Below are positions 2,597 through 37,800 of a stretch of 64,000 nucleotides of DNA, one piece after another. The notes below the pieces were generated by a model that was given only the letters and a program-made list of their open reading frames with translations, was not told the origin of the DNA and searched no databases. Within the stretch, counting starts at the first letter, position 1; the number at the start of each line of letters is the position of its first letter. The position numbers and the translations under genes are program-made. The stretch is from Branchipolynoe longqiensis (taxonomy: Eukaryota > Annelida > Polychaeta > Phyllodocida > Polynoidae), in contig CM059193.1 of assembly GCA_030323885.1 (NCBI GenBank), positions 71,143,997 through 71,207,996 of the forward strand, written 5' to 3'.

Positions 2597-2669
2597 GCCT
2601 AGGTGGTGTAATGGTTAGCACACTGGCCCGGAATGCAAAGAGATGTGGGTTCGAGTCCCACTCTAGGCG
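2597..2669 (+). repeat. tRNA-like sequence, array copy 2
   Basis: Same tRNA-like block as copy 1, identical through the A and B boxes, 320 bp further along within the second tandem unit. Confidence 0.65.
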
Positions 2670-2917
2670 CAGTATTTCCCATTTTCATCACACCCACGAC
2701 ACTGGTTGCCGTGATCAGGATCCTGTACAAGCTTTGCGCTGTATGGTTGTTGAACCTACCCTGTGTATGTATGTGTAAGTGCATTGCCTGTATGTATGTA
2801 ATTGTAAGCATTACAAGACTTACAATTCCAGGGGGACGAGTGTAGTGGTCTGCACTGACCTCTCAGGCAAGTAACCACATAGACAGGTAGGCGTGGGGAG
2901 TGTCTTGATATCAGGGA

Positions 2918-2990
2918 GCCTAGGTGGTGTAATGGTTAGCACACTGGCCCGGAATGCAAAGAGATGTGGGTTCGAGTCCCACTCTAGGCG
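2918..2990 (+). repeat. tRNA-like sequence, array copy 3
   Basis: Third copy, in a tandem unit that breaks off at about 3022 after the CCCCCACGACA block. The sequence that follows belongs to the right arm of the enclosing TIR element. Confidence 0.65.
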
Positions 2991-3313
2991 CAGTATTTCC
3001 CATTTTCATCACCCCCACGACAATACTTATATAGGCACAGAGTTGGTGAAATGGCAGAGAATGCAAAAAGACAAGATGGCAGCTGTAGAATGCCGTCGAT
3101 TTCACTTTTAAATCTTATTAAACTAGATATATTATATTTTTCAACTCAAAGGTAGCGGGCTAATAATAAGACATGTAAAGAATAATTGTTGCTTCTTACA
3201 TTGTGAAATTAGGCTCTCATTTCATTGACCCGTATTTTCGACCGTTTTTATATAGGGTTGGTATTCACCCGTGTACTGCGAGTACCGGGTGAATCATTTA
3301 TCTAAGCTGCACC

Positions 3314-4586: not shown

Positions 4587-4590
4587 ACAT

Positions 4591-12468: not shown

Positions 12469-15400
12469 CTGTGGGAAGAAACACACCATTATAGAACAGA
12501 CTAGAAACTGCAATTATTTAACCCCCAGGTTGGTTGGTTGTTGGAGTTTTATATCCTGGCAACATCTAAGGTCATATCAGGATGAGCACCGACTTGTGAC
12601 AGTGTGCAGTGATGGCGACTTCATAGTGCTGCCCCACTAGGAAATCAGGCCACCAGCACCATGACCTGATATCCCACTCAGTCACATTATCCTGACACTG
12701 AACGAACCAGTCCTTGCCCTATCCTATTAATGTTGAGCGCCAGGCTAGGAAGCGACACCTAGTGATTTAGAAGATTATAATCCTATATCAGGATATCAAC
12801 AAAACTTTGTATCCTCAGATTGTCACCCATCAAAGTACCTACAAAGTTCCAATGCTGCCTAACTTTGGTGATCGGATGAGAACCAGCATTTTAAAGGTGA
12901 TTTTGGCCATATTATAATTTCATTTTGTACTCTGGCTACGTGGAAGACTATATCAGATGTACTACTATACTTCTATAAAAACAAATATGAGTAACTATGT
13001 ATGTAGTGCTATAAATCCCACCTCTTAGATCACGACTAATAAAGATATTTATTGAAAGACAGCAATGCTTTATTTTACAATCACTGAACTAGTGTATTTG
13101 TAATCATTATTATCACTATTACTTCCATGACGTAACATTTTCTTATTCAAAAACAACTATCAGTCATTGTAGTAGGTACATATGGATTGGTATACTCAAT
13201 CACTAGTGGGATTCATTCTAGGCCAGAAATCTAGGACCAGACAGGCAGGCCAAATAACTTAAGTGCCCGCTTCCTATTTGCAGGTCGTGGAATTCAAAGT
13301 CGTCGTTTAAACCCTGACAGAGACAAACCAATGATATACAATTTTGTACTTGTCGCGACCTAGCTTGGCACTAAGCACTACTAGGATGGGAAGGAGTAGT
13401 GGAATGCGGAAGACCACATGATCAAAATAAAACACACAAAAACTTCGCTTTGCTTTAAATAGACAAAAACAGATTAATCAAATTGGTCGTAATGCTCGCA
13501 TTGCGTTTGATTCGTGGCGGGGGAGGAGGACCCCCCCCCCCTCTTTCATCCCTCCCCTGCCGCGACCGTTGGGTCGGTGACATAACACCCCCCCCCCTTT
13601 CCCTCGGCCCTTATAACCGGCCGCCCCTGCTGCTCCTAGCCACTCGCCTCCTATCACCCTCCTGGCCCGGACATAATTCTTCTTTCTTTGGCACCCCCGC
13701 CTCCTCGCCTCACGCCGCCTCCTCGCCTCACGCCGCCTCCACGGCTCGCGCTCCACGGCTCGCGCTCCACGCCTCACGCCTCACGCACGCACACCATCAT
13801 GCCAGCCGGCTCACGCCCCCGAGGTCGCCCCCCGGGCCGCCGAGGATCACGCCGAGGCAGGAGCGCCTCAGCCACCCCACACGACGCCGCCTCCGCGACT
13901 TCAACCGCCCCCAGCCTCCAGTCGGAGGCCACCTCCTGGGCTAGCGCCGTGGACGCCCGCATGGATGCCCAGGCCGCGGCCATGCAATCCCAGTCCGGCG
14001 CCATCGACCACCTCACAGCCCTCGTGGAGTCCATCACCCTCGCTCCACCTCGGGCGCCAGCTCTCCCGGAGCCTGCCGCCGCGCCCCCGCCTCGGGCCCC
14101 GGCCATATCGCCCCCCTCCATCGCCGACCGCCTAGCCGACCTGCTGCAGGAGCTCACCGCCGGGACTGGAGGGGGCGTTCACCCGGCCACGCACCCTCGC
14201 CTCCTCCCCGCCTCCGCGACTCCCGCCCATCCGACCTACCAACGCTACACGAGGCGCGGCCTATACACCACACAGCAGGCCGCCTCCGCGGCCCGCCTCC
14301 CCGCTGCCGCCCACCCCGCCCCCGACCGCTCCCCCGCATCCGCGGCCGACGCGGTCAGGGAGATATTGGAGTCCGCCGAGGCCCAGGGCAGCGGACGACG
14401 AAAAGGTATTCCACCCGGTTACCTCTTCCCTCACGACCTCATTGAGAGGGGCGCCGAGGGGAAGGCCCTGAAGCGCGGCGAGGCGACCATGGAGGAATAT
14501 AACCTCGCCCTCCGCATGCTCGAGTCGCACCCTGCCTTCCCCACCGACTCCCTCCCCGGATTACTCCACCACAACATGACCGTCCTCAGAGACTGTGTCA
14601 CCCATCCGTGGCCGACCGTACGGCGATATTCAGAGACCATATTCGCCTGGATCGCCGACGGACGGCTCCCGGATGGGTGGCGCGACCCAGTCGCGATTAA
14701 CTCAGTCCGTATGGATGTCATCACCGCCCCCGCGACTGCCTCCGGGGCGGAGCCAGAGCCCTCCCCTCCTCTACCCGCGCCCCCGCCCGACTACCCCCTC
14801 CCCCACACACTCCCGCCCCACCCACGCACACCCTACACCCACGAAGCTTACGGGATACCCTGCCCCGCCTGGAACCGGGACCCCACCTCATGCGACCAAC
14901 CCAGCCCCGACCGGAAGTCCGCCCCAGGGTGCCCCGCCACCAAAGCAACCGCCTGCCAACACCCGACACCACCCCCAACCGCCTCCCTAAACAACCCTGC
15001 ACTGTCCGCGCCAACCGCCACTCCAGTATCCTCACATCTCACGCCGGCCCAGATGGCCCCCATCACCCCCCCCCCCCCCCCCCGCCAGACTTCTCACATC
15101 TCCCGCCGGCCCAGATGGCTCCCATCACACCGCCCCTCACATCTCTGCCGCCGCCGCCGCAACCCCCCCACCCCTGCCTCAAATACCCCTCCCCCACCCG
15201 CACCCCCCCCCTCCCCCTCCCCCGGCGACACTGCATACATCGGCCGCCTCCCCGGCTCCGCCCCCTCAGCCCACGCTTTCGCCCTTCCCTTCTCCCACCC
15301 CTCCCGCACCTCCCACCCACCACCACCCCACCCCCCAGCGACCTCGGCGAACCAGTCGCCGAGGTCATCAACCCAGGCATTCAGGACACCCTTCCCGCCG

Positions 15401-18400
15401 CCCCCTCCTGCGGCCCCACCCCCACCGCCTACCGCCCCACCCTCCTCTCCATATGGCCCCACCTCTCCGGCGCCGCCTGGAGCCGCCACCCCATTTTCTC
15501 CCGAGCCTACCACACCCTCCGCGCTGCGGGCCTCCCTAATTTTTTGGCCGCCCGCATCCCCCTCCCTTCAGGCCTACACATCCCCGCCTGGCGTACCCGC
15601 CTCCGAGATCACCCCGACAAGGACCTAGTCGACCTCCTCGAGTACGGCTTCCCAGCCAATTACTCCGCCAGCACCCCCCCCCCCCCCGGCCCACATACAC
15701 TAACCACCGCGAGGCCCCGGAGCACCAGGCCCACCTCCGGGACTTCATTGCCACCGAGCTCGCACACGGCGCCCTTGCCGGCCCCTTCCTCGCCCCCCCC
15801 CTTCACCCCCTGGGCCCAGGTCTCCCCCATGATGACCCGCCCCAAATCCGACCCGGGCAAGAGGCGGGTCATCGTCGACCTCTCTTACCCCCCTGGCCAC
15901 AGCGTCAATGCTGGGATACCACGCCGTGAGTACCTGGGTAGGCCCCACGCCTACCGGCTTCCCTCCGTGGCCGACGTGGGCCGCCGCCTCGTCGGTCAGG
16001 GCACCGGGGCCTACACCTGGACCGCGGATATCTCCAGGGCCTACCGCCAGCTACGGGCCGACCCCCTCTCCTGCCCCCTCTACGGGATCGCCTTCGAGGG
16101 GGCCACCTATGTTGACCTCGCCCTCCCCTTCGGCTGCCGCTCCTCGGGCGCCGCCTGCGTCAGGGTGACCGCCGCGGTGGCCTGGATCCTCCGGCGCGAG
16201 GGCTTCCATGCCCTCGTGTACGTCGACGACTTTGTCGGGTGCGAGCTCACCTACCTGAGGGCCCGCCAGGCCTTCGACGGCTTCATCGCCCTCGTCGGCG
16301 CCCTCGGCCTGGAGGTCGCCTCAGGGAAGTGCCACCCCCCGGCGGTGCGGGTGTCCTGGCTCGGATTCGCCATCGACAGCGACGCCATGACCATCCGCAT
16401 CGCCCCCGACAAGGTCGACGAGCTCGTCGCCGACTGCGAGGCCCGGGTCGCCCGGCCTACCCTCGGGCGCCAGGAGCTCCAGAGCATCCTCGGCCGCCTC
16501 AACCACGTCGGCAGCTGCGTCCTGCCCGCGAGGAAGTTCATGGCGCGCCTCCTCGCGGCCCTGCGCAGCTGCCACGGGTTCGCCACCATCACCCTCGGGG
16601 ACGACGCCCTCCGGGACCTGGCCTGGTTCGCGGCCTATGGGCGCGCCTCCAACGGCCTCCACCTCCTCCGCCCGCCCGGGACCCGGAGGATCGTCATCGA
16701 GTGCGACTCGTGCCTCACCGGGGGCGGGGCCTACTCCCCCAGGCGATATTACGCCCGAGGGTACTCCAAGGCCTTCCGGGCCCGCTTCCCCGCCATCCAC
16801 GAGCTCGAGGCGGTCAACCTGGTGGTGGCGCTCCGCGCTCTCCTCCTCCCGGCTGACGTCGCGGGGGCCAACGTCGTCGTCAATACGGACAACATGGCCT
16901 CCGCCGCCTCCCTCGACTCGGGGCGGGCCCGGGACCCCACCCTCGGGACCTGCGCCCGGGAACTCTGGCTGATGGCGGCCGAGGCCTGCTTTGAGCTCAC
17001 CATCGTCCATAAGCCCGGGGCCGACCTCGTTCTGGCCGACGCCCTCAGCCGTGCCCACCTCCCTGGCCGGTGGGCCGGCGTGGCCCGAGACGAGGTCGCC
17101 CGCCTCGGGCTCGAGCGCGCCGACGCCGACCATGACGACTTTCCCTACAACCCCGGCCTCTGATCCAGGATACACCGCCTCCGAGGTCGCCGCCGTCGAC
17201 GGGCTGCGCATTGCCGCCCTCGCCCCCTCCACCTGGAGGAACCGTCGTCGACAGGCCCGAGGATACGTCGAGTTCGCCTCGGGCCACCGCTGGGACCCCC
17301 TCGCCCCGACGCCCTTCGACGTCGCCGCCTACACCGCCTCGCTCTACGCCCGCCCCCGTCCGGTACGCCCTCTCCGGGGCGCGCTCCTGGATGGAGGCGG
17401 CCGGGGGCGACCCCAGCGCCTTCACCTCCCGCCTCGCCAGAGACGTATGTCGCGGTGGGGAGCGGGCCTCCGGGCATGTCGCCCGCCCCGCCCCTCCCCT
17501 GACGCCTACCATCCTCGCCGCCGTCGCCCAGCACCTCGCCCTCGCCAGGCCCTCGGGCGTCGTCCCCCGGGCCGCTCTGCTCCTCGGGTACTACGGGATG
17601 CTACGGCAGTCCAGCCTCCTCTCCCCCGGCCCCGAGGTGTGGGGCGGCCCCCACACCATCACCCGCGGCGACGTCGCCCCCGCCCCCGGGGGGCTGCGGG
17701 TCACCCTCCGAACCACCAAGACCATCGCGCTGCCCTCGGGGGCGGTCGCCCTCTTCATCCTCGCCTCGCCAGGGCGCCCGCTCTGCCCCGTCGCCGCCTG
17801 GACCGCCTCCGTTGCCCTGGCGCCTGCCGGCCCCGCCGATCCCGCCTTCATACTGCCCTCCGGCCGCCCCCTCGACCCTCGGACTCTGACGGCCATCCTG
17901 CGAGGCGCCCTCTCGGCCCTCGGGGTGCCCGCCCCCGACGGCTACACTCTCCACAGCCTGCGCCGGGGGGCGGCCCAGGCCTGCCAGCGCGCCGGCGTCC
18001 CCCTCGCGGACATAATGGAACAGGGGACCTGGACCTCCGCCTCGGTCCACGCCTACGTCCCCCGTATCGCCGCCTCGGGCGCCCCTCGAGCCCTCTCCTC
18101 AGTTTTGGTGGAGGGCTCCTCGGGCCCCCTCCCTCCCATCTGACTTCAGACCCTGAGATGACACTAAACCTCGGGCTTGGCCCTCTGCGCCTATCTGACT
18201 CTTGATTTCTATATGGTACTGCACTTGAGCTTCATTGATACATGTTATACCTCATGTTAACTACATCCATTGCACGCTATAACATTGCCCCTTTGTCTGT
18301 GAATAAAGTGTGTTTTATTCCAATACCTGCCTCCCTCTCCTTCCTCGTCACGTATCGGTCGTAATGCTCGCATTGCGTTTGATTCGTGGCGGGGGAGGAG

Positions 18401-21400
18401 GACCCCCCCCCTCTTTCATCCCTCCCCTGCCGCGACCGTTGGGTCGGTGACATAACACCCCCCCCCTTTCCCTCGGCCCTTATAACCGGCCGCCCCTGCT
18501 GCTCCTAGCCACTCGCCTCCTATCACCCTCCTGGCCCGGACATAATTCTTTCCACCCACCCACCCTTACTTACTCTCATCACTAAACCTCGGGCTTGGCC
18601 CTCTGCGCCTATCTGACTCTTGATTTCTATATGGTACTGCACTTGAGCTTCATTGATACATGTTATACCTCATGTTAACTACATCCATTGCACGCTATAA
18701 CATTGCCCCTTTGTCTGTGAATAAAGTGTGTTTTATTCCAATACCTGCCTCCCTCTCCTTCCTCGTCACGTATCAACTCACATCAGACTAAAAACTAAGA
18801 CGCAGTTGACCTACTGCATCCAAGAGTGCAAGCACCAGGAGTTGAATAAAAACTCACATGTCTAGTACCCCTACCCTTGACCCCCATTGGCTGGCTGACT
18901 GGCACACACCTGGCATGGTGACGGCGCCCTGACCCTTCTGCTGCCGCTTGTACTGTCGAACCCGCTCCTTGGCGCGAACCACAAACTGCTTGGTGGCACC
19001 AGAACCTACAAGACATAAATAAATTAATGGCAAATCCATATGAAATAACCACAACTGTTAAAGTTGCATGATCCAAGGCTATTAAGCTTCTGCATTAAAA
19101 GAATATATTTGCAAGTTAAATCTATTAGGTTGATCGTTATAACCTAATTTACTTCAGTTTGAAGTGAATTTAATTTTAAGTGGTTAAATTTGGATAAATT
19201 TAAAATGAAAATGCGGGACATCATAAGCTTCAGCAGTGACAGCAGCTACGTGTATTTGTTTTCAAATTTGATGCTTTTCTCTGATTATGCAGCTTTTAAG
19301 AGTCAACCACAGTATCGACCAAGATTGTGTGTTTTTGTTTTCAAATTTGATGTTTCTCTCTGATTATCCAGCTTTTAAGAGTCAACCACAGGAAAGACTT
19401 AGATTGTATCTCTGTATCCATCTGTACATTGAAATATCCAACAAGGACACATAGCAAAACCATTAAAAACACAGCTACCACTAGTACTTTACACTCGACC
19501 AAGCACATGTTACATTGATTGATAGATGATGGCTTAACACCGTGTTAGCAACAAGGGCCACATTCATGGCGAAAAGCTAGGGGTATCTATTTTGTCAGTC
19601 TTGTAAAACACCACCAACATGCCTACTTTCAAATTTACACGAAACTCCAAAATTATCAGATCCACGTCAAATGATGTCGAAAGCCATCTCTGATGCAATT
19701 TTGAAGTGGTTAGACATTTATTTGAAGAAAGAAAAGCAGCAATAAAAACCAAAAATAGCAGGAACTGACGGTTGCTTACCTGTATACTTGAAGTCGCCGA
19801 GGTCGCCATTGTAGGCGTCTGGTAGCTGCGTTGCGATGTCACGCTGCGCCTCAAAGATGATGTTACATTTGCGGCTCATCTCCATGTACGCCGTAGACAG
19901 CCGTGTGTAGCCGTCCTTAAAGCGGATCAGCTTCACCGCTTCGTTCTCACGGATCTTGTCCTCAACTGTCACAACAGAAGTGATTAGAGATTAGAGTGTT
20001 TGAGCTATATGCTCAGGCCAAGTCAGAGACTCCACCATCAGGGCCCACAACATGTGGTGAGGATGCAATCTTTGAATAATAATCACCTGTGTATCTACTA
20101 GGCCGTATTCGATTATGACGAGCCGGGTCACCCGAGACATTAGGAGTTCGGGTCACCCGAGACGTCAGGATTTCAAATAGAACACCGCGAGTTGAGTCTA
20201 AAAATACAAGTGCCGTGTGCAAAACGACCCAACCCCAGTAACCCACGTCTTGACTCCGGGTGCTCGGAGCAATGACGTCACATTTGTGCTAGTACCTGTA
20301 GGATAACAGCTACCAGTGCAAGTCCTACACGTTTTTTAATGCTTTTTTTGTTGTTGTAATAATGAAATGGAAATATAACTAAACTATGCAATCATACTTT
20401 AAATCCTATTTTGCTGTAGTTATATCGGTTATTCCAACAACAACAAAAAAGAGTTTGGGATTAAGCCACCCCGAGAGTGTTCGTTTATGTAACCCGAGGT
20501 TATAGGCACTGTGCATGCGTCAAAAAGTGATTCGGGTGACCCGAGTTGTTTAATCGAATACGGCCCTAGTGATTTGGTAGGCTATTAGCGTGTATCACGA
20601 TGTCTATGGCACCTTGCATTCACAGGTCGTCACCCATTCAAGTACTAATCAGGCTCAATGTGGTTGCTTTTTTGTGTGTGATCAGACAAGAACCGGTGTT
20701 TCCAACATTCCGATAAATGCATTCAGAAATAAAATATTGCAGGGTGTGCACAGTACCGAAGACTATTCAAGATTTTTCATGGGTATTAAACACATTACAT
20801 TTACTTTGGAACCATTTATGTATGTATGTATGTATGTATGTATGTATGTATGTATGTATGTATGTATGTATGTATGTATGTATGTATGTATGTATGTATG
20901 TATGTATGTATGTGTAATGGCCCACGGCCCTCCGACTCTCACTCACGCAGTCACCCACGGAAGAACACCAAGATTCAATTCAGTGTACGCTTCACCCTTG
21001 GTTTATTGAACCATCTGCTCTCCGCGGCGTCAGTAGTTGTCTGACCCGCCCCCTGACTCGCCAGATCCCACATCGACTCTATAGGTGTGTGTGGGGGGGT
21101 GGGTCAGCCACACGCAGTAGAGGTCAGCCCAGTTGGGGTCTGACCGGTGGCTACCCGTGCCGCCACCTAGCGCAGTGTAATGGTACTGCGCTGGTGGACG
21201 GCGTAGTCTCCGCTGCTACCGCGTGATAGTAGAGCTCATGTTCAGACTACTACACTGCCCCCCCTAGAGTCTCACCGGTTGCAAACTGCAAACCGATGAG
21301 AATCGAGAAATGATAGAAGTCAACATGAGAACTAACTTGAAAGGGAGAGAAGCCTTACAAAGCTATGTATCCTTATGCGCAATTCCTAGACCTGCCTGCA

Positions 21401-24400
21401 GCGAATAGCAATGTGTTTCTAGCTAGCTGCAAGGCAAACATGTCATCAATCTAGGTGAAGAAAGAGTCTTTAAATGAGTCGCACAAAAACGACCTCTCCC
21501 AGCCTCTATGTAGTTGGTGTATAGAATGTTTTTTGCTGGGAGAGAGTTCATACCCCACAAGTGGAGCCCCCTCGACAGAAGGAAGCAGGGAACTGCTCAG
21601 TCCGCCCCCCGCCGCCCCCCATCTCAGGAGAACCGTTAGCGGGGCGCTCTTCCTTCTACGCGGAGCGGCTCCTCTTCGAGCTTCCTCAGTCCGTCCTTCT
21701 TGTGCCCGCGTCGCCTGGCCAGTAGATCACAGACGGTATTACACCGCGGACACGTCAAGCAGCCACACCCAGGACCCGCCACGCTCGGTGACCCGCTCCG
21801 GTGCAGAGTGCATGAAAGTAGAAGGGCGGTGTTACTTATAACAATTGAGAAAGTCTCCGCAGATACAACGTTTAGGTATGCAATACATTTCATAAGAAGC
21901 ACTGGGCGCCAGCAAGAACCCGGCCTCCTACAAAGTAAACTACACCCCATGTGCATCCTCCCCTGCCGTAACAGGAGCCGATGCACACGCTGTCAATCAT
22001 GTTCTGCCAGAAGCGCTTACTATAGTAGTAATTTTGAAATTAAAGAATGCAGCATAAAATAAGAGCCAGGGCGACACTGCATAGGAAAATCTTTTAGTGT
22101 GAAATGTACAGTGTCAACCCACCAACTCCCACACCATTGACCACCTCGTTCCACTGAATAAATTTAGAATATAATGTTTCCTAATAGTGTGGAAAAAGGA
22201 AGTCAAAACGGGGTGAAAGTTGAGGAATATCTAGAAATAATTAATCTAATATATATATATATAAAAAAAATTATTCCGACCCTTACTGCAGAAAAATAGG
22301 CAGAACACAAGAAGCTAGATCCTCCAATCGGGAGAAAGCTAAGCTCTTCACCACAACATATATTATCAACAATCGTACTGCAAAGAAAAATAATGTTGGA
22401 ATAGAGCAGTACGAAATGCTAAATACATCATGGTTATCAATGTAAAAATAGCACCGTAGTACTAAAAAGGTATATACAATATTATATTAGTATCAATATA
22501 TATATATATATATATATACAAGGCGGTATCCACCTCCTTAAGGGAGATGAACTATCAGAAAAAAAATTATTTTATATATTATTAATGTGTATATATATAA
22601 AAAAAATTAATAACCGCCACAGGGGTGCTGGTCTTTCAATTACCCCCGACGTGGAACCCGGAATCCCTCGGACAGAGCTAGCGCCGATCACCTGCGCGAG
22701 CAGTCAACCACCGCTAACCTAACTGCCACCTGTCATCCGAGACATCACGTTATCCAGAATCCCTCGGACAGAGGAGAGCGACGCCCAACTGTGCCAACAG
22801 TTAAACGTCGTCCACCACCCCGTCACTTGTCATCTGAATTTTGACGTGACGTCCAAAATCCCTCGGACAGGACAGAACGACGACTAATCGCCGTCCACCT
22901 TCCCGTCACCTGTCATCTGAACGTCCCCGTCAGCGTCAGAAGGCGCCCTTGCCGCCCGCGCCAGCAGCGCCCGATGTGCCGCAGCAGCATCAGCCACCAA
23001 GCTGGCCGGCAGGCCGTGCAGCCTGTCCTCGACGCTGAAGCCAGAGAGATCCAAAGCACGCAATGAACCATCCCAGCTCCGGAAGTCAGAGCGAAACGCG
23101 GCAGAAAAAGTCATGTCAATGTCATCAATGACTGCCGCCTGCCGCGCCCTCTGCTCGCGCGATGCCTCCAACTTTCGCTCGACAATCTTTTTGTCCTCAA
23201 CGATATTGTCGAAGTCTGCACCGCGCCTACCCTCAGCCTGGCGCGCCAGAACATCCTGTGTCTGCGCGACGACCGCGTCAAAGCCCCCTATGAAGGCTTT
23301 AACCAGGCCGTCGACCGACTCAGTGATCCTGGCCGTCACGTCCAAGCGGTTGGCCTCGCAGAGACGCTCCGTGATGCCGTCCAGCGCAAGGGCGACACTG
23401 TGTTCGACCAATGGGGCCGCAGCCACCACCGGTCGCACAGGTACCACCCCCGGAGAAGGACCGACAACAGGAGCAATCACCACTGGTCTCACAACCGGGC
23501 TTGCAGACGCTGTCACCGTCAACTGAGAGGCAGATCCCGCAGCCGCCGACACACGTCGCCGCGGAACCTGACCCAACGACACCGGTTGGGACACCGATGC
23601 CACTGGCACCGTCGCCACGGTCGCCGGAGCACGCGCTACCACCGCACTCAGAGTGTCGGGTGTCAGCGCAGCCACCAGCTTCCGACGCTTACGACGGCGC
23701 ACGCCCCTTGATCCACCCTCCTCCGGATCAATAGTCGCGACTGGCAACTCAGGCCAGTCTTTCAACCCCTGCTGGGCAGCAGATGGAGGGGGTGGAGGCG
23801 GCGGCGGGGGAGGCGAAGCTGACCTGTCCGACCCCTGGTTCCGCTGCAGCTGGATAGCAGAGCCATCGCGCAATGGTACCAGGGACGAGGACCTCTTACC
23901 TCTCCCCTTGCCTTTCCCCTGGACGGACCTAGCACCCCGCCCAGAGCTCGAAGAGGCCACAGGAGCCGCTCGCCCCTGCTGGTCCCTCCTCACGGCAACA
24001 GCACCACGACCCCTGCCCCGTTTCGCCGAAGATGCGCCGCGACCGGTGTAGAACCGCTCACGACGTACCTCCGCCGACCCAGGAACATATATAAACAGGG
24101 CAATCAACCTGTGCTGCTTGGGCAGCACCAGGGTTTCCCTGCTATAGTGGAAGTCTGTGCGCTGCTTCATCGTGAAGGACACAGCTCTCTTCGACACGGA
24201 CTGAGGATTCCACTGAATCTCACTCAGCCCCTTCACGACGTCATCTAACATACGTCCGTGGCCCTCCATGAGATGCTTGATCATCACCCCGCGGCGAGCA
24301 GTCACGAAGTACTGTCCTGTCGCCTTAAGCGTTGGACAGCCCTCAGAACCACTCGCCACGTTGAACGGTCTAGTGCACCTCCAGAGAGGGGCGGTGTGCA

Positions 24401-27400
24401 AGTGGCTCTCACAAATGTGTCGAGCCAACTGTACCCACCGCAGAAACAGCTTTGGGGTCTGCCTACGCCCGACCGGGTTCAGCTCACAGAACAGACAAGT
24501 CTGTCCTGGGCGAAACACACGGCGGACATACCCCAGGCACGCCAGTTCCTGTTTCGTATAACCGTCCCCCCTCGTTGGATCCTTCAACGCCCCAAATATC
24601 TCACATAGATGGGCGTTGTACCACTCCAACGCAGCGCGGGGACGGCTGTCAGCCTCGGTCCAGCCCTCATCATCGGAGACCTCATAATCTCCATGCACAT
24701 CATAAGGCCGCATGATCCGCTGGTACCCGTTCTCCCAGATCACGTAGTCGCTGAGGCTACGGGGCTCCTCGTGAGGGTCATTCCATAGCCGCGACAGGGT
24801 AGTCTCTGTCAAACCGGCCACGTTTCCCGAAAGAAACCGCGCCAGCTTAACAGGTCCACCCCTACGCGACCTGACGATCCACTCAGACGATGGAGTGAGG
24901 TCCTCAGCGATCTCATAACCGAGCTCCACCCCAAACCTACCACTGGCAGACCAACACGCAAGCATGTAGGCCATCCAACCCGTTCTCCGATCGTCCCCCC
25001 CCTGCTCTTGTTCAGAGCAGGCAGCGGCCGATCTCGACGGACGTGCAGTACCAGAACTGCTACCAGTGGGGACGTCCTCGACGTCCACGGGTACGGTTCG
25101 TTTCGAACCATCGCTATTATGATAGCGATAGTCGAACGACCCATAAGACACCTTAGCAGGAGGGATCGATGCCTTAGGGGGCACCGACACAACCTCCAAG
25201 CGAGGACCAGCGTCACGCTGTACAGAGGCTTTAGCCTTCTCCACAGCAATCCTCACCTGCGCTTCCGTCAAAGCACCAGACTCACGAGAAGGGGCAGGAG
25301 GCCGAAGCAGCTCACCGCCCACAACCGGGGTAGACTCGACAGAATCGACGTCCATCCTCACACTGGAACCTCCCCCTACTGACCGTCCGTTGTCGTGAGG
25401 TGCCGGCGCCAGACTCCCTAGGGTTCTAGCGCCTACATCCTCAGAGCCTGCGGACGGTAGCATAGGAGGTCGGACAGCAACTGCAGTCGGCAGTACCACC
25501 TGGCAAGAACCCGATGAACTACCGCTGAGAGGCTGCGCCATCCTCACATCAGCTGGGCTGAGCGAGAACGGATCCGTGCGGGACGAACAAACCGACTCCC
25601 TCAACGCCTTCTCACGCAGCTGCCACTCCCGAAAGCGTGACAACTCGTCAGCATTAACCATTGTCTGAGCATTCGAGATAATGGAAGCTGGGTGTAGCCG
25701 ATCATCGAACCCAACAGGGGAACGTAACGACAGGCTAGCTACTCCCGGAGGAGAAACCAGCCCAGCCGCCGTAACCCGCTGAGGGCCCCTCACGACCGCC
25801 AACACGGGCGACAATAGGGGACTAGACAGCTGCGGGGAGACTGTAGCAACAATCTCCCTACCGCCTAAAGGCCTAATGGTCCCTATACAGGATAAACCTG
25901 CCTCGTCGCCACCCTCGGCCTCATCGAAGAGAATACCGAGAGAACTCACGGCCTCAGCTCCCCCTAATGGAGTGCTGGGCGAATCCAGAATATCATCTGA
26001 CATGGTCCACACGCAACGAACTGCCACGGCAGCTCAAGTCGCGTGTCCCCCACGACAGACGATCGCCGTACACGCTGTGTCAAGTCTGCGCGATAAACGC
26101 ACAGACCAACACAGTCGCGGCCGGCCTTGCTATATTCTTATAGTTTGTCACAGTAAACAAGTACAATAAGGAATACGCGAATAGAGATAGGATTAATGTT
26201 CGAGGAACAAAGACACCCACCTGGTCTGCCGGCAGCCGGTAGAGTGACTGGCTCCACGTCCTCCCACGCAGAACCGCAGAGTCCAGCCGGCGTACCAACC
26301 AGAGAGTGCTTACCTCACTCGCGAAACACCAGGTGCGCCACCGGTACAACTAGCGTGACCTACATAGGAACCCAGCCAAACCACCCGACGGCGGTATTCC
26401 CCGCCCCCCCGCAGTACCGCTGACGTCACCGCACCACGTGGTCACGGAGAATCCCCAACCGCAGAATATCAGGGTGACCTAGTTAGCTCAACCACAAGGC
26501 CCGCCCGCCAGCTAGTGCACAATACTGAGCCACCCCCGGCGACAGATCCCCGGCACTTACGCAGTACCCACCAACAACAACACGTACTGCGTAGCGCCAG
26601 CAACCCACTCGCCCGGTTACACGCACATGCTATAAGTGACCCAGTTACGCCAAACTGAACAGTCCAACCAGTTACACACCCATGCCCGCAGCAAACATAA
26701 ACACTCCCCCGGTTATAGCAGCTAACACGCAGTACGCCCCGTCAACAATAACCAACGCGTTAGACAAGAAATAGCAGATAATAAACACACGGCTTAGGCA
26801 AAGGCATTACGCAGAACAGTAGTAACTGCGCCCATTCATTGGCGCCCCCGGGGCCCCCGGTCTTTCCCCACTACTCTCAAATAACTGCGTAGTAAAGTTT
26901 AACTGAACATATGTACTGCGTTACTCGTTGTGTGACAGGGATTGGAGTATCTCATGTACGACCAACCCCTGGAGACCAGACAACACCAGGGTGGAGTAGC
27001 CTAATACCCACTACCCCACCCCATACCAGTTATCTGCGTCGTAATGCTAAACGCTCAGATCGCCGCACAGGCGGTGCATCCGAACCCACATCAGACCCCT
27101 GTCTAACTGGTACAAAGTCGCTGTCACTACCCGAGCTACTGCGTACAGAAACAACACTATCGACATCAGACACTGATCTAGAACGACGCCGACGTTTATT
27201 TTTCCGTTTATCAGGCCTATGCCGCCTAGGGCGCATAGCCTCCCCCGCAGTAACTGGAAGCCCAGGTACTTTCTTCTGACTGAACGCATCTATAGTGCCA
27301 GCCTCCACCCTCGCAGGTGCGGGCTCGTCCCCTACATGTGCATCCAGCCAGGAGGATGGTCCAGCGTTTCTAGACATCTGCTCGGTGTAAAGCTTAAGAC

Positions 27401-30400
27401 GTCTAACGTTAGATTTACGGTATTTACCATCCTTGCCCTTCATAATAACTGTGGTGTCAGAGACAACTTCTGTTATAGTAAAGGGACCATCCCAGTTCTT
27501 TGCGAGTTTGACCCGAGCTAGCGGCGCATGATACCGCACCACCCGATCCCCCACCTTGAACTGGCGCCACGCAGCAGGCCCGTAGTCAGATTTCTGACGA
27601 ACCGCTGCCCGACCTAAAGCATCGCGAACTGCGCTATACGCGTGGTGAAAGCAATGCTCCAACCATCTTACAAACACGATCTCACAAGGCCGGTCTACTT
27701 GACGATTCACCACCCCAAACTGCAGATCAGCTGCTAGTCGGAGCTCCTCCCCAAATAGTAACCTGTTAGGAGTCACACCCGTAGATGCGTGCTCCGTACA
27801 GTTATATGCGTGTGCCACAAACTTGACCTGTAAATCCCAATCATCTTGAAAGTCATTCACGGTACAAGCCAACGCAGATATCAGCGTCTTATTAAAACGC
27901 TCTACCATACCATCCGATTGTGGACAGTACGGGTTCGTACGCGTTTTCTTAACGCCCAACAAGCGCAACATGGACTGAAACAGTGTGGACTCAAATTCCC
28001 GTCCCTGATCCGAATGGATCCGCATTGGGGCACCGAATATCAAAACCCAGTTATCCACCAACGCCTGCGCTGCAGTGGGTGCAGTGTGATCTTTTAAGGG
28101 GTACACTTGCACGTACTTAGTGTAATAGTCTTGGACTACCATCATCACCACATTCCCCCTAGACGTCGTCTTAAACCCGGACACAAAGTCACACGCTAGA
28201 CGGCGCCACCGATGCCCAGACAATTCCTGAGTCAACGGTAGCTTAGCAATCCCTTCACCTGGCTTCACCACCTGACATTTATGGCAAGTGCGTACCCACC
28301 GCCTAATATCAGAAGTCATGCCAGGCCAATAGAACCGCCAAGCTAAACGCTTGGTGGAGCGAACACGCCCAAAGTGCGTAGCTGTAGAATGCCCATGACA
28401 AAACAACAACACATCATCGCGCAATGCAAATGGCACGACGATCTGCAGGCGACTGCGTAGGTCTTCACCCACTACCTTCCACCTGCAGAGCACACCCTCA
28501 CGCAGTTCCAGCAGGTCCCATTGATTTATAATCTTACGAGTCTCTGCATTCTCCACCGCCAGCTCGTCACGCAAAGGCTTCGAGCGGCCTACCTCCAACC
28601 ACTTGATCACACGCAGTATGGAGGGATCTTGGCGCTGCGCCAAGCGAACCTCTGATAACGTCCAAAGCTCATCATCATCTATGTCCGCCAGACGCATCGC
28701 AGAAATTGCTGCGAGTACACAATTATGCGCGCCACAGTCCGTGCAATCACCCCGGCCGCACTTACGCACCGGGATTCTACTCAGACTATCTGCGTTGATG
28801 TGATCCACCCCTTTCTGTACACAATATGCTCATTCGTCACACCATATTCAGATAAAGTGGCCAACCAACGCCCCATCATCCCCTCCGCCTCCTTGAAATT
28901 CAACAACCAACGAAGAGAATGATGATCAGTCCGGATAATAAAATCCGACCCTATCAAGAAATGTTTCCACTTCCTGCTATACACGACGATAGCCATCAAC
29001 TCACGCTTCGTCGTGCAATAATTCCGCTGCGCTTTATTAAGTTTATTACTCGCAAAAGACAACGGGACCTCTACCCCATCCTGAACCTGACTCAACACGC
29101 CTGAGATTGCAAACCCCGACGCATCAGTGTCCAGAATGAACTGCCCCACCGCCCGCGGATATCGCAGCACTGGGGTCTGAGTAAAGGCACGTTTCAAGCC
29201 CAGAAATGCCGCCTCCTGAGCGTCGCCCCACACAAATTTTATTTTTTTCGCGGTAACGACCAAGTCCTGCAGAGGAACAGCCAACCGCGCAAAATCAGCA
29301 ATGAAATCGCGGTAATACGACACAAACCCAAGGAATGATCTCACTTCCTTCATATCCTCAGGTCTGGGCCACCCCGCAATTGCAGAGAGCTTTTCCGGGT
29401 CTGCCTTAATCCCCTTCGCAGAAACCACACGCCCTAGGTACTGCGTCTCACGCCTAAAAAGCCTACACTTTGAAGCCTTGAGTCTCAGCCCATAGGAACG
29501 TAAACGATCAAACACTGCTTGAAGCCGATCCTCGACATTCGGTTAGTGTCCGACCAAAGACAATGATATCATCCAAATACACCAAGCAGATCTTCCACTG
29601 AAGACCAGCCAGCATATCCGTCATCATCTTTTCGAACGTGGCTGGAGCATTACATAGCCCAAACGGCATCACGTTCCACTCGAATAAGCCTAAGTGAGTG
29701 CTAAAAGCAGTCTTAGCAATATCCTCCGGATCCATTGCTACCTGATGATACCCAGATTGCAGATCCAGAGTGCAAAACCACTCATTACCCCCTAAACTCT
29801 CGAGCGACTCATCTATGCGCGGTAATGGGTAAGCATTTTTCCGCGTCACAGTATTGAGTTTTTTATAGTCAATGCAAAAACGGATCGAACCATCTTTTTT
29901 CTTGACTAAATGGACAGGTGAACTCCACGGTGAATCACTACTCCTAATCACTCCACTATCTAGCAGCTTATGCAACTCCGTCTCCAGTGCTTCTTTTTTA
30001 GAATGCACGAAACGCCGATAGGGAATCCTAAAAGCAGCAGACTCACCGACATCTATGCCATGCTTCACCACCTCAGTCCAGCCTAACGTCTCACCAGGCA
30101 CTGCGAAAACCTGAATATTTCTACCCAGAAATTCCACAACCTGAGAGCGATCAGACTCATCAACCACCTCACACCCCATAGCCAAAGGTATAAGATGGGC
30201 AGGCAAGCTTCCATCAAGGGACCGAGATACAACAGAAGGCGCCACGCACTCCTCCGTAGTACCAAAAGTAACCGCCTCGGCTACCTCCCCCAACGCAGCA
30301 ACGCCCACTTCCCCTCTACTACTCACAACACTAGAGGGGCAATCCAACTGCGCCGCCCGCGCGACACGCAGTTCGGGCCAACCACTGCTCCAATTACCAG

Positions 30401-33400
30401 GTAACTGCGAACAGCTGACCGCACAACACCGCCCCGCGCCAACCCCGTCCACTGGGTCAACTGCGCCAACAGCTGACTCAGCGACCCCGTTGCCGCGAGC
30501 AATGTTTACACCGGATTGTTTACTCAACCCCGCCTTAGCGTATTCACTATGAACATTACCAAAGTCAGTAGCTTCACTCAACAACCCGATAGTCGTACCC
30601 TTCTGTAACCTAACCGCATAACGATTTGGATTAAACAAAGGCACAACCGAGTCAACAGGACTCCACACTAGCGTATTCTGACCTACCAATCCCAGTTCAT
30701 GCAATTCTGAGACCATTGGTTCAAATAGGCTCTGGTGATCACCGTCAACCCCTACAGCTGTAATTTTAACATCACAGCCGGTCATCGGAGCAATGCGAAT
30801 ATCTTGCGCAACCGCAGACACAGTCTGACTATCGCGACGCAATTCACACTGCACCGTGAGTTGATACGGATATCGAAGATATAGGCTGCCCGCCTGACGC
30901 AGCTCACAACCATAATACTCCAAAAATTCCGCACCCAAAATACCATCTTCTGAAATATCGGAAACAGTAGGGGCATAATGAAATATTTTCCCCCCGATTT
31001 CCAGAGATAGTATGGCTTGTCCGTACTGCTTGAGTGGCGCACCGGTGACAGTGACAGGCTTCACGCTATTATCGAAAAACACCTTATCACCGTCCAACTT
31101 ATCGAAGAATTTTCGTCCAACACATGTGACCGCAGCCCCACTGTCTATTAAAAAATACCCGATAGTCCCTCTAACGCACACTCTCACATACCACCGTTTT
31201 CCGTCCAAAGTCCAGAAAGTGGAATCCACGAATAGGCGCTTACCACAAGGGTGAGACAGGTCGCACCCCTGACGCTGTATTATAAATTGCATACAGTCGT
31301 CCAAAGGTGCGGGAGCCAAAGCAGAAACGCAACGCGCTATCTGCTCCATGCCATCCCACAATACCGACTCCACTGGGATAGAATCACCAGGGGCGATCAC
31401 CGGCGGTCCCGCGCTAGCATCAGACTGCACACCGGCTTCCTCGACAGTTAACACCGCATCCGTTTTGGCGGTATCCGGGCTTGCCAATTGGGTTGAGCCT
31501 AAGCCCAAACGGTCCAACCCTAGGCGTTTAAATGAGGCTTAGCCTTTGCGTCCCTGTCCTTACGGAGACGCGCCAACCTAGCCCGATCAACACCTGAGTT
31601 GTCCCTACCCTCGCGATCACCGGCTATTACAGCCTCCTCGAGAGTACGTTTTACTCCAGTACATTGGATAGGCCAATGACCGAAAGCAAAGCAACGACCA
31701 CACTCGTGATCACGAGCACGCGTATCTTTCTTAGCTACGCGCCTGCGCGCAGATAACCCAGATGAGCTAGGCCCACCTGTTGCTACCTGCGCAGCAGATT
31801 TCTGCTCCCCCATCACATCACGCACCCAACCTTGGACTAACGCTTTAGTGATAGGCGGCGACTGATAACCCCCCCCAGAGCTCGCCCGGAAATTGCCACC
31901 ATCCCGATAGCCACCGCCCGACGAACCCCGATAGGAATTACCACCACGATAGCTTCCCCCAGAACTCCCCCGAGAGTAACCACCGCCGCCATTACGCCGA
32001 GGATCACGTGGCGCGTTATACGCAGCCACCTCAACCTCGAACTCACCATCCGACTCATCTGACAGTCGAATAGCCTCCACCGCAGTCGACCGCCCAGCAC
32101 GCAGTGCCTTGGCGCAGTAATCGTCGACTACCTCAAACATCTCCTCCAGAGATGACTTACCCGGCCGCCACCGGTCATAGGCGGCACGCTGCTCTCCCGG
32201 ATCCATGAGTGAGCATACGAAACGCTCGACTATCTTAGTCTCGATCGCACGCTCACTCATCCCAGTATCTCTCGCAGCCTCCCGCCCATCAACCTGCAGC
32301 TGTAGACCGTACGCACGGTACGATCCATCACGGGCAGTTTGGACGCGCTTCTTCCACTGATACCAGCGCGCCATGGGGTCCACTGGACGGAACTTATACG
32401 AGATGATAGGAAGCAATTCCCTCATCGTCGTCAACCCATGGCGCCTCCACGCGTCCACGCAGTCCTGCGCCGGCCCACTCCTCAGCAGAGGTAACAGCTG
32501 AATGAGAGCTACCCTCTCATCCCACATGTTGGACCGCATATCCAACGTAAAATCCCGCCACCAAGTATTCCATTCCTGCTTAATACCTGTAAATGGCTTA
32601 GGACGCAACGTCGGAATACGCGCAGAACCTGCCACAGGATACCTCAGAACATTCTCATCTAGTTCTAACGTATCCCGATTACACGACTCCCATCCGGCCC
32701 CACCCCCAATCGAAGCAGGCTCCCGAATCACATCCATTATTGCAGGATGATTCCGGAACAACCACATCTCTTCCACTGAGTACTGGCGACCCACCGGCAG
32801 CCCAGGCAACGACGCAATGGGCACTGCGTCACCGCCCAAACCCACCGGGTCAGGAATCCTCTCACCCCGTATCTCCTCATGAGTATTACCCACGTATACG
32901 GAATCCTGAACAACACCCCGTCGATGTTGCCCAGCACCCCCCCCCCCCCCGAGAACTAACATCCCCAGGAGAGGGCACCGGCTCCCTAGGACCCCCACAT
33001 CCACCGCCGCCCCCCTTAGAAGGCGCCGGCGAACGCGGTGAGCTACCCGCGGAAGCCGGGCGCGCACTATGCCCTGGATACTGCGTCTCGCGGCTATCCA
33101 ACCGCGTAGACTCAGTAACCCTCGCACCACTCTCCCCAAGCCCCAAACCGCGTTGAAACGCCAGTTTCTCAGCCTGAAAAGCTGCGCGCTCACTTGCAAG
33201 GATCTCCAGAGCAGAATCAATGCTAAACCTCTCGGCAGCTAGCAACTGTTCACACCTCTGGTTCTCGTCCTGCAACTGAACATTCAGCGCCTCCCGCATG
33301 GACAAATCCTCCAACTGTTTCGTGAACGCAGTTTGCTGCTCTTCCACCAACACTCGACTAGATTCTGCCTCCTCTGCGGAAATGCGCCGCGTTTAGCTCT

Positions 33401-34825
33401 GCTAAATCGCGTGCGAAGGATGCAGCATTGGAGACTCTTAAATCATCCAACGCCCGTCTCTCCCCCGCCATCCGGTCAAACTGGACCCGCTTCCAAGCTC
33501 GCAGACGGCGGATACGCATCGATTCTTGACGCTCCACCTCCGACTGCGACCCCGAAAACGTACGACCCATAACCAAATCACGCTCTAACGTAAACGTTAA
33601 CGAGTCATCGGCTACGAGCCCTGTCTCCAAAGCCGGGGAAATCTCCCTACGACAGGGAATTTGGGGATCATCACGCCCAGCTCCCATCCCCACAGAATGG
33701 ACAACTGAACTTCCCCACGGTGAATACTCCAGCGGCACTCCTCCCACAGAACTCCCGCGTACGCCCAGACCTAAATCATCACGACACACGATTGAACTGC
33801 TACCCTCACGTACACCCGCCCCCGAATCAATATTGATCGACAGAGACTGTATATCATCAAGAGCGAAGCCCACTTTCATCGCACTCCCCGTAATGCCCTC
33901 CCCAGTACTATCATCAACTGAGAGAACATTTCGCGCTGCTGTTGATGGCGCGACATTTTTCAACGCCGCGCCACCACTACCAGAACGAGTGCCCAACTGC
34001 GCGTCACGCCCACCACCCTGTATCGCCACCGGTGTAAACAACGGCGCAATACCTGGCGGCGGACTGCCACTCAGTCGCGCTAACTGCGTCCAATAGCTAT
34101 CAACGCCTTCAGCACCTCTAGGCGACACCACCGGCACTAGCGCGGGAGTGGCTACGCCCCCCCCCACTCACTGACACCTGGCGGCGGTCCCCTATGACGC
34201 CGGCACCTGCATTAGGAATGAACGTATTAACATCAACATCCCCAACAGGTGAATAGTGAGCGTGGTGCAGTGTACTCACCACAGAAGCGTCCACGCTCAC
34301 CGGCGGTCCCACCGCGTCGGGACGCCCTGTACCATCAGTTTGGTACTGGCGCCCACTGCGCAGTTGACCTGCCGTCGCCCCCTCCATAACTACAAATTAC
34401 GAAGAGAACCTACCTTCGGAGTCCATGGCCCAGGTCCAATACTCACCCCTTACGCAGAAGGCGAGCTGGCTCACGGCACCAATGTAATGGCCCACGGCCC
34501 TCCGACTCTCACTCACGCAGTCACCCACGGAAGAACACCAAGATTCAATTCAGTGTACGCTTCACCCTTGGTTTATTGAACCATCTGCTCTCCGCGGCGT
34601 CAGTAGTTGTCTGACCCGCCCCCTGACTCGCCAGATCCCACATCGACTCTATAGGTGTGTGTGTGGGGGGGTGGGTCAGCCACACGCAGTAGAGGTCAGC
34701 CCAGTTGGGGTCTGACCGGTGGCTACCCGTGCCGCCACCTGGCGCAGTGTAATGGTACTGCGCTGGTGTACGGCGTAGTCTCCGCTGCTACCGCGTGATA
34801 GTAGAGCTCATGTTCAGACTACTAC

Positions 34826-34856
<31 letters not shown>

Positions 34857-37800
34857 TGTATGTATGTATGTATGTATGTATGTATGTATGTATGTATGTA
34901 TGTATGTATGTATGTATGTATGTATGTATGTATGTATGTATGTATGTATGTATGTATGTATGTATGTATGTATGTATGTATGTATGTATGTATGTATGTG
35001 GTTCCAAAGTAAATTTATCGACATCAATACATAATGCATTACTGAATAGTGTTGTCTGTTAGGTAAGCAAACGTCTCATTTGATGAAATTGTTGCAAACT
35101 AAATTACACACCCATGAACTGGGTTGATAGGAACAGGAAAGAGAAAAGGAAAGAGAAAAGGAAAGAGAAAAGGAAAGAGAAAAGGAAAGAGAAAAGGAAA
35201 GAGAAAAGGAGGAAAGAGAAATAGAATGGAAGTGGAAATGTCCAGGAATTCTTCAATGAGTGACAGTGAAGCAGCTGCTCATCTGAGGCCAGAATTTTAT
35301 GGACCCAAATTAAATTCAAAACATTTCCAGACTACTTTGACAAATTCAAAGCTGCCAAGGCCAACCCGTTGGATTAAGTCAAATGAAACACCGACTTAAA
35401 CATGTCAAAGGTCTCCTACGAATCCTTGTGTTCGTAAAGCACATCACTGAAGAGATACACAATATTCGTTTATTAATAACTAACACACAATATATATAGA
35501 GAACTGACTACACACATAAATATAAATATAGAACTCACCCTCTAGGACAGCTAGGTCCTTCTGGCGTTCGGCTTGTGCCAGTCTACTCTCCAGAATCCTA
35601 AGCTCGTCTGGCGTAGCTTTCTGTATAAAATAACCCACATAATACAACGGGCTAGTTCCTAAACGCTCTGTGACAAATTAATTACTAACACACTAATTTC
35701 ATAATAAATCTTTACAGTTTATCAGAGTTAGCACCAGGGTTCATACAAAAGGTTGGCCACCAGGTTCAAGAGCATTTTCAAGAACCATACATACACAGGG
35801 TCCATACACATGTGAAGATATGGAATTCAAGGCTATTTCAAGACTGTTTTTGATAGGAATTCAAGACTATTTTCATTTGGATTTAGTCCGAATTCGCCAT
35901 TCGGAATATCGATTTTACACTAATTTAAATCGGTGGGGACAGTTTAATGGAATTCAAGGGTATTCAAGACTAATCACCCAAAATAGGTTCTCAGGCCTTT
36001 CAAGGCCGGAAGACCAGCGCCTCAGTGCTGAAAAAAAGATGTTATTCAACTGGAATAAAAATTTGGAAAAAAAAGAAGAAAAAAATGGGGCAAATGAAGT
36101 TCAAAACTTTAAAGGCCAAATACAGACCCTGCATACATTAATTATTATGAATGCTGGAAATATATGTTATGCTTTCTCCACAAAATACATGCCAAGTGGG
36201 GTGAAAGAGGGTGGGCAGGAAGGGGTTGGGCCCTGGTTATCACACATCAATAGTATTATGTTTATGTGTATATTTCTTTAAAGACCATGCGATTTAAAAT
36301 GGGAGGATAAATTTTCATGAATATCGTCTCATTGTCGAGTGTAAATAATATGTGAATAGCTAAGATTTTTTTATTATATCACGTTTTTCGCTTACCTTAG
36401 CAACCTTTTTGAGCTCCTTCTTAATTTTTACTTCCCTCTGCTCACATACCATCTAAAGGGAAATGGTGAATCCGTATGAAACTAACCAGCAGTATATATA
36501 GTTATCTTAACATATGTCGTTCAAAATAATTCCCTACTTAATGATTAGCACATATAAGTTCCATTTATTCTTTAGATAAAGGAAACATCAATTTGCAGTT
36601 CTAGATTCATAATAGATTAAAACAACTAAAATAGCGTAATATATTTTTAAGCTTTAGTAGTAGTACATTTCATATGCTATTTTCTAAGTTTTCAGTTTAT
36701 TCTATTATTTACATATGCCTAATTTAGATTGAAGAAGTAACTCTAAATTATACTAATATCTAATGTAGATTTGTATACTTACTAAGTTTCCTTTAGCATA
36801 GTCCACCTGTTTCTCGCCATCCAAGACTAAATCGAACATGTGCTTAAACTCTTTTAGTTGTTCTGGAAAGGAAAGGAAAAAAATATATTCTTATTTACAT
36901 TTAGCAACTGAATGCCTTTTGAATACATACTCTGGCAATCGTGACATTAAACAAACTCATCAACATATTTAGTTTTTAGATGATTTGCAGCGAAACGTAA
37001 TCTAGGTATGCCTAGTTCAGACTGTAGGATTTCACGGTAACGTGTCGTTACCGTGCTGGGGAAACTACGGAACCGAAATTGTGTTTCCCATGATATTAAT
37101 CAAAGCAAGGCAATTACATTAACATTAAAAAAAAAAATTTAATGCTACAGACGGTTGTTTCCATTACATTGTAGATGACCAGACGGGATGGCCGAATGAG
37201 TTAGAGCGTCCGTCTCCTGTGCTGGTAGATCGTGGGGTCGAGTCCTGGTCGAGTCAAACCAATGACTTTAAAATTGATACTTGTCGCTTCCTAGCCAGGC
37301 GCTCGGCATTATTAGGATAGGGCAAGGACTGGTGTGCTCAGTGTCAGGATAATGTGACTGAGTGGGATACCAGGTCATGGTGCCGGCGGCCTGGTTTCCC
37401 AGTGGGACAGCACTATAAAGTCGCCATGAGTGCGCACTGTCACAAGTCGGTACCCGTCCTGATATGACCTTGGATGTTGCTGGGACGTAAAACAACAACA
37501 AACAAACATTGTAGATTATTAAAGGTATATGTACAATTTCTGCACAGGTGGGTTCAAAATATACTCTTACTAAATTTAATTAACTGTTTCAAGAATGGGT
37601 ACCCATCTCCAATTTTACGGAACCGAAAAACAGTTACCCATGGGTTCCCATGAGTACCGGGCACGGAACCCAAAAAGTGTTTCCCATGAAATCTGAAATC
37701 CTACAGCCTGTAGTTACATGGCTTTCTATGAACAGTTTATATTGCACGCAATCGTGAAAGCCCTCTGGTTGTGCAGGAACTAAAACGGATGTGTTTGTTG

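Follow-up and report, generated by a model that had tools for sequence, protein, structure and literature searches.

The DNA analyzed here is a stretch of 64,000 nucleotides from the polynoid annelid Branchipolynoe longqiensis (assembly GCA_030323885.1, contig CM059193.1, positions 71,143,997 to 71,207,996 of the forward strand), which we call the window. Its minus strand carries a full-length Ty3/gypsy element of ~13.9 kb from one long terminal repeat (LTR) to the other. After the integrase and before the 3' LTR lies a third open reading frame (ORF), here named ORF3, and the element is of a known kind, the LTR element with an accessory third ORF. ORF3 runs from an ATG at 26003 to a stop at 22884 on the same strand as gag and pol, the open frame extends to 26033, and a plus-strand reading of 22884-26003 meets 18 stops. 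Cut at 344 and 341 bp, the two LTRs agree in 339 of 343 aligned columns (2 substitutions and one 2-base gap), and this near-identity indicates that the window copy is young. A preliminary description of this DNA had reported an intact ORF of 1039 codons in the sense orientation after integrase, in a young 13.9-kb Ty3/gypsy element, and all of this was borne out. It gave neither the strand nor the pol frames, and what is described below, two diverged ORF3 types on an almost identical pol and a core exchanged between copies, was beyond its view.

ORF3 is a maintained gene of the element

A search of a set of 5.8 billion proteins with query words from residues 345-660 revealed three relatives of ORF3, P0001, P0002 and P0003, which are 52%, 41% and 40% identical to it over these residues and 47%, 33% and 32% over the full alignment. 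A profile search of the same set returned the same three, and query words from the first 500 residues found no relative in it. Scans of viral_contigs with ORF3, the ORF3 alignment and integrase gave no relative, and a scan of genome_contigs found a single ORF3 locus, L001, which encodes P0002. L001 is a 13,374-bp contig filed as a Calditrichota metagenome-assembled genome (MAG), with the order gag, one pol frame of 1599 codons and ORF3; between it and the window element, integrase is 65% and ORF3 33% identical. Its ends are identical over 91 bp, which makes it a circular assembly of the sort expected from an LTR element present in many copies. Because a gypsy element lies on it, we infer that the contig is eukaryotic contamination. 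As a side observation, a nearly whole gypsy element thus sits inside a public bacterial MAG (L001:1-13374), and the hypothetical protein listed for it is probably non-bacterial. The preliminary description had proposed looking for the ORF in related species; the protein set gave these three relatives, one of them in gag-pol-ORF3 order.

In the window's own genome we found, among the candidates scored (44 of 10117), 50 ORF3 rows, 21 of which span residues 1-1039. The expectation that other copies carry the ORF intact holds for 15 of these 21, which have no stop, but not for all copies, since some lack or break ORF3 even where pol is open. The ratio of nonsynonymous to synonymous substitution rates (dN/dS), which the preliminary description had proposed computing as a check for purifying selection, has a median of 0.317 and a range of 0.18-0.87 over 153 non-independent pairs. 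These come from 18 of 20 fetched copies; L027 and L029 were left out for broken frames, and L028 entered with 944 codons. The corresponding summed ratio pN/pS stands at 0.46 in the N-terminus, 0.35 in the core (0.23 in residues 490-600), 0.38 in the linker and 0.16 in the predicted C-terminal helix, and it remains at 0.33-0.41 across all four dS bins. The copies were drawn from the best matches, which biases the sample toward intact ones, but neutral frames would not give such values despite that bias. Since ORF3 is conserved in other sources and under selection between copies, its frame is not a chance one; it is a maintained gene, and purifying selection means that it matters to the element.

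Two ORF3 types, an exchanged core and copies without ORF3

We next classified the integrase loci of the genome by the ORF3 segment that carries the putative zinc ligands (the zinc region). The integrase scan (74 of 9980 candidates scored, with the last two rows merged as one locus) gave 74 loci, 95-100% identical in amino acids. At least 27 are followed by a zinc region of the window's kind (type A), at least 16 by a second kind (type B) and 31 by neither, a class that includes loci too decayed for scoring; the zinc-region scans scored 150 of 811 candidates for type A and 150 of 777 for type B, and the type-B scan did not list all matches. Among the matches listed, the type-A query returned 140 rows at 76-100% identity and then ten at 70-71%, while the type-B query returned 69 rows at 86-100%, of which eleven have frames of 1047-1049 codons, followed by a few intermediates and then type A. 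Type B was called as these first 69 rows (≥86%), excluding six later rows of 86-99%, none of which adjoins a "neither" locus, and seven of 77-81%. At two of the 27 type-A loci the zinc region lies at an unusual distance (C8:96628796, 5.6 kb; C2:4324982, 0.6 kb). The window copy's pol is frameshifted into three frames, and a single open pol frame of 1500-1502 codons is found at 14 of the 74 integrase loci elsewhere (one with a TGA within its match); at least 5 of the 14 carry type A, at least 4 type B, and 5 neither.

Eight open-pol integrase loci absent from the ORF3 list were chosen by hand and sampled as 481-base pieces. Two proved to be type A (92% and 88% identical) and three type B at 72-74% (L059, L061 and L063). 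In the other three (L060, L062 and L064), the zinc region is replaced by 3' non-coding DNA while pol is open, and the implied deletions are ~2.3, 2.9 and 2.9 kb. A ninth locus, L055, is without residues ~435-705, and the rest of its ORF3 is 55-66% identical, with stops. Over the zinc region, the window copy and the three type-B pieces differ at a dS of 0.81-0.86 and a dN of 0.17-0.18, and other type-A copies differ from type B at a dS of 0.77-1.33. The integrase of two type-B copies (400 bases) is 2.5% and 3.0% different from that of the window, with a dS of 0.12 and 0.13 on 10 and 11 changes. Pol and ORF3 are thus partly uncoupled, with two diverged ORF3 types on an almost identical pol. Separately, a further ORF3 zinc region, 88% identical and on the same strand, lies outside the window at G000:C8:71136446-71137108, ~31 kb away from the window copy's own.

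The sharing of one integrase by both types bears on whether ORF3 could accompany the integrase complex as a factor for integration-site choice or nuclear import. Its basic cluster and nucleic-acid-binding look would suit such a role, but types A and B sit on nearly the same integrase, and at the 18 of 20 insertions with a complete 3' LTR end the flanks differ, with no common target by eye; we regard this role as distinctly improbable.

Among the fetched copies, divergence is unevenly distributed. The 16 of 20 copies with aligned integrase (L012, L014, L019 and L023 left out) differ pairwise, in nucleotides, by a mean of 3.5% in integrase and 5.5% in the pol-ORF3 spacer, and by 4.6% in the 3' region and 4.1% in the LTR; the reverse transcriptase (RT) mean of 8.3% is too high because a single copy aligned badly. 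Along ORF3 the mean is 8.0% for residues 1-284, 14.0% for 285-605, 7.9% for 605-860 and 6.9% for 860-1039. Synonymous divergence shows the same contrast, with a dS of 0.34-0.49 in residues 353-591 against a pol median of 0.06 (pol measured in 5 of the 20 copies, where two 60-codon windows are artefacts). This high dS points to an older ancestry of the core, beyond faster protein change.

The pattern is clearest between two type-A copies, L015 and L021, which differ by 1.0% in RT and ribonuclease H (RH), 1.3% in integrase and 0.7% in the spacer. In ORF3 they differ by 5.5% over residues 1-140, 2.1% over 141-284, 18, 15 and 11% through the core, 2.8% over 606-700 and 1.5% in the C-terminus, and in the 3' region by 2.3%. 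Thus 147 of 292 differences fall within 1011 of 9884 columns, an odds ratio of 10.2 with sites treated as independent. We read this as the exchange of a segment of ~1 kb (about 25200-24100 in the window). A group of five copies (class 2: L020, L021, L022, L025 and L026) is supported in the core alone. That the central part is swapped between near-identical copies suggests that ORF3 decides which copies thrive.

A different account of the core pattern is recombination between old lineages around a passenger, a captured gene kept open temporarily and useless to the element. Such an account would make sense of the 31 of 74 integrase loci with neither zinc-region type among the matches listed downstream, of the region's loss from L060, L062 and L064 with pol open, and of close pairs at a dN/dS of 0.6-0.9. 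It is nevertheless very improbable, given that summed pN/pS is low in all four dS bins (in copies chosen by similarity and openness), that the Cys/His positions described below are invariant, and that ORF3 is kept in another element, where it is only 33% identical.

The ORF3 protein, the element and its surroundings

The ORF3 protein has a set of eight putative Cys/His ligands without variation in any of 18 copies or of the 4 aligned proteins (that of the window and the three relatives), and the set is seen in all 3 type-B pieces as well. The first four, C-x2-C-x22-H-x4-H, loosely fit C2H2 spacing, and zinc binding by the eight is plausible. Together with the strongly basic linker, the invariant Cys/His residues fit a nucleic-acid-binding protein. 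The preliminary description had listed Cys/His pairs, an Arg/Gly (RG) tract, a poly-Pro run and a basic cluster, all of which are present, and had seen no signal peptide or membrane segment. We agree on both counts: the best 19-residue hydropathy mean is 1.51, and inspection of the N-terminus shows no signal peptide. Its suggestion of nucleic-acid binding gains from the invariant ligands and a linker isoelectric point (pI) of 12.0 and loses from the lack of a profile match, so that its reading of ORF3 is partly supported. The C-terminus is possibly a long helix, as predicted at low confidence.

These properties also bear on the reading of ORF3 as a particle or other structural protein, either envelope-like or an additional Gag-like component, whose variable core would be a surface recognizing partner capsids or receptors. 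The divergence of env genes is concentrated in one exchangeable segment, as is that of ORF3, and the site between integrase and 3' LTR is the env position of errantiviruses. However, ORF3 has neither the membrane segment (by hydropathy) nor the signal peptide (by inspection only) of an errantivirus-like envelope, shows no similarity to the element's own Gag (best E 1.8), and has no relative in viral_contigs in the two scans with ORF3 and its alignment. We therefore consider a particle protein quite unlikely.

The remainder of the element is that of a Ty3/gypsy retrotransposon (Table 1). RVT_1, RT_RNaseH, H2C2 and rve score above the Pfam cut-off in the order expected of Ty3/gypsy pol; the gag-asp_proteas match (protease), at E 6e-4, is below its own cut-off, and toward its 3' end the gag region weakly matches a CCHC-like knuckle (E 0.05). 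The LTRs have TG...CA ends, and a primer site adjoins the 5' LTR, as in Ty3/gypsy elements; the primer is probably tRNA-His. Troyka elements likewise have a gypsy-like pol and occur in invertebrates, but end in CG...CG (PMC12440569), which sets the window element apart from them. A (CATA)n microsatellite lies on either side of the window copy (20817-20913 and 34827-34999). Microsatellite targeting as a rule was rejected, since CATA/TATG repeats hold 3 of the 18 complete 3' ends. An imperfect repeat of three units of ~90 bp (22640-22960) starts within the end of ORF3 and reaches into the 3' non-coding DNA.

Table 1. Features of the window copy, in the direction of its transcription
Feature	Position in window	Strand	Basis
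5' LTR, 344 bp, TGTAGT...ATTACA	34483..34826	-	repeat finding, LTR alignment
Putative primer binding site (PBS) TTGGTGCCGTGAGCCAGC, adjoining 5' LTR; nearly identical one in L001	34465..34482	-	
Leader ATG (34426), then donor-like AAG/GTAGGT (GT at 34413)	34408..34426	-	putative donor
gag region, candidate ATG near 34387; several frames	31523..34387	-	frames, Pfam search
pol, with a weak match to aspartic protease, then RT, RNase H and integrase (H2C2 + rve); three frames	27033..31538	-	Pfam, frames
Integrase	27033-28829	-	
Non-coding spacer between pol and ORF3, ~1 kb	26004..27029	-	
ORF3, 1039 amino acids, type A	22884..26003	-	
ORF3 residues 1-284: acidic (pI 5.2), Ser/Pro/Ala-rich, probably disordered	25152..26003	-	
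ORF3 core, residues 285-650: conserved across sources, divergence peak between copies	24054..25151	-	
Putative zinc ligands C503 C506 H529 H534 and C543 C556 H577 H582	24258..24497	-	
ORF3 linker, residues 651-860 (pI 12.0), with RG tract, poly-Pro run and the basic cluster RRRKRRK	23424..24053	-	
ORF3 residues 861-1010: predicted long helix, most constrained part	22974..23423	-	
3' non-coding region, ~1.6 kb, middle AT-rich	21255..22883	-	
3' LTR	20913..21254	-	

Elsewhere in the window, a tyrosine-recombinase retroelement of DIRS/PAT look lies at 13482-18774 on the plus strand; it is GC-rich (70-74% in its middle, the window being otherwise ~34-45% GC) and has an RT ORF (14701-17160), a recombinase ORF (17136-18140) and split direct repeats. 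Three tRNA-like gene copies (anticodon GGA, 74 nt) stand in a 320-bp tandem repeat at 2200-3022, a host gene frame at 4492-5499 (+) matches TSSC4 (E 3.5e-11), and a 5S rRNA-like match at 12793-12911 (-) is barely above its family threshold.

A possible role for the ORF3 protein

From the sequence we infer that ORF3 is probably a nuclear nucleic-acid-binding accessory protein. We tentatively propose that it binds RNA or DNA in the nucleus, is made from a spliced RNA and has an exchangeable core that sets its specificity. In this proposal, ORF3 would be an accessory gene of one Ty3/gypsy lineage, and its product would combine a disordered N-terminus, a zinc-binding core, a basic linker with the RG tract and a nuclear localization signal (NLS), and a helical C-terminal segment for oligomerization. 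The protein would bind the RNA (or DNA) of its own element, between which nothing in the sequence separates, and might aid the nuclear exit and packaging of the unspliced genomic RNA, in the way of Rev and CERV. Specificity would reside in the core (residues about 285-605), which recombination moves from one copy to another. The two ORF3 types found on an almost identical pol are deeply diverged, and a copy lacking ORF3 may draw on the protein of another.

ORF3 is probably translated from a spliced RNA in the manner of CERV and Rev, with a donor between PBS and gag. All 4 leaders that align have a donor-like site there (window, L050, L052 and L054; L051 gave no leader and L053 stops at the PBS). 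It reads CAG/GTAGGT in L050, L052 and L054, and its conservation fits a spliced RNA for ORF3. L001 also has a donor-like site between PBS and gag, of other sequence, and the window leader has a second one, GGG/GTGAGT, at 34446. A fusion of the leader ATG to ORF3 could be drawn on paper but is not a reading that the data favor.

The nearest functional parallel, by analogy, would be CERV of Cer1, a Ty3/gypsy element of C. elegans. CERV is a nuclear protein of 517 amino acids, made from a 5-exon mRNA and needed for export of the genomic RNA (PMC10309623). Like ORF3, it is encoded in sense by a large ORF that occupies the place of env, after pol and before the 3' LTR, and is not Env; both have a candidate nuclear signal, a Cys-rich region, divergence between species and no homologues known outside their group. 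ORF3 differs in its 1039 amino acids and two Cys2-His2-like sets, and the two are likened by description; the exchangeable types on one pol seen here do not figure in the CERV passages covered (PMC10309623). The third ORFs of bdelloid rotifer LTR elements, described as encoding a fusion glycoprotein, a GDSL esterase or a DEDDy exonuclease (PMC5408684), are likewise extra ORFs exchanged between retroelements; there the sharing is between element classes, whereas here a segment moves within one family and ORF3 matches no Pfam family. The sense additional ORFs of plant LTR elements, aORF-3S (PMC7264820), resemble ORF3 in position, orientation and presence in many copies; some aORF-3S have transmembrane segments and are called env-like, whereas ORF3 has none. 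The open PMC papers searched hold no account of ORF3 or of ORF3 types sharing one pol; Repbase and subscription papers were outside that search.

VANDAL transposons are plant elements of another class than LTR retrotransposons. Their VANC proteins supply what is, by analogy, the main rival in kind: ORF3 as a sequence-specific anti-silencing or transcription factor on the element's own DNA, its core shifting as host silencing and target motifs shift. Like ORF3, VANC of Arabidopsis is accessory and element-encoded, and its related forms act on different targets (PMC5735166). A zinc-finger-like core with an NLS-like cluster suits such a factor, as do the core's standing as the most diverged of the reliably measured parts (mean 14% against 3.5% in integrase, 16 copies) and the long non-coding spacers that flank ORF3. 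A weak repeat in the pol-ORF3 spacer, ACGCAGT in 5 copies, could be its target, but this is marginal (8 of 200 shuffles attain the top count, and the word was picked after looking) and is outside the top words of the L001 spacer. ORF3 also has no recognized DNA-binding domain, and VANC, which comes from DNA transposons, is likened to it by description. We judge an anti-silencing factor unlikely, though with some real chance.

Several results weigh against the RNA-export proposal. For the protein, the second ligand set (C-x12-C-x20-H-x4-H) departs from the classical C2H2 finger, AlphaFold gave no fold in two runs on four sequences (pLDDT 37 and 36), and neither sequence nor profile searches matched ORF3 to Pfam or PDB, which accords with the preliminary description in that no clear env, gag or host match appeared. 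For splicing, there is no clear acceptor, as polypyrimidine-AG candidates before ORF3, scored by a rough rule, include none that is outstanding. As to selection, the closest ORF3 pairs have the highest dN/dS (up to 0.87), as expected of decay after insertion. The 5 of 14 open-pol loci with neither type indicate that ORF3 is not needed in cis, so it is either dispensable there or supplied in trans. Type B ORF3 was read over 480 bases in three copies, and L061 has two stops. Finally, core exchange between copies is not free: integrase distances rise with core distances (Spearman 0.75), and outside the core too, in integrase, RT/RH, C-terminus and 3' region, the class of the window copy (L010, L011 and L016) is supported.

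A broader scenario, to which we give limited credence, is a single replicating backbone on which ORF3 alleles compete. ORF3 would be a self-recognition factor serving mainly RNAs with a matching partner site, its types would be kept by frequency-dependent selection and spread by core swaps, and ORF3-less copies would be cheats that rely on protein made by other copies. If true, this would be a social system inside a retrotransposon family. Third ORFs after pol are common in LTR elements and few are understood; the ORF3 types, the core exchange and the ORF3-deleted derivatives offer natural variants for probing function, action in cis or in trans, and cheating between elements.

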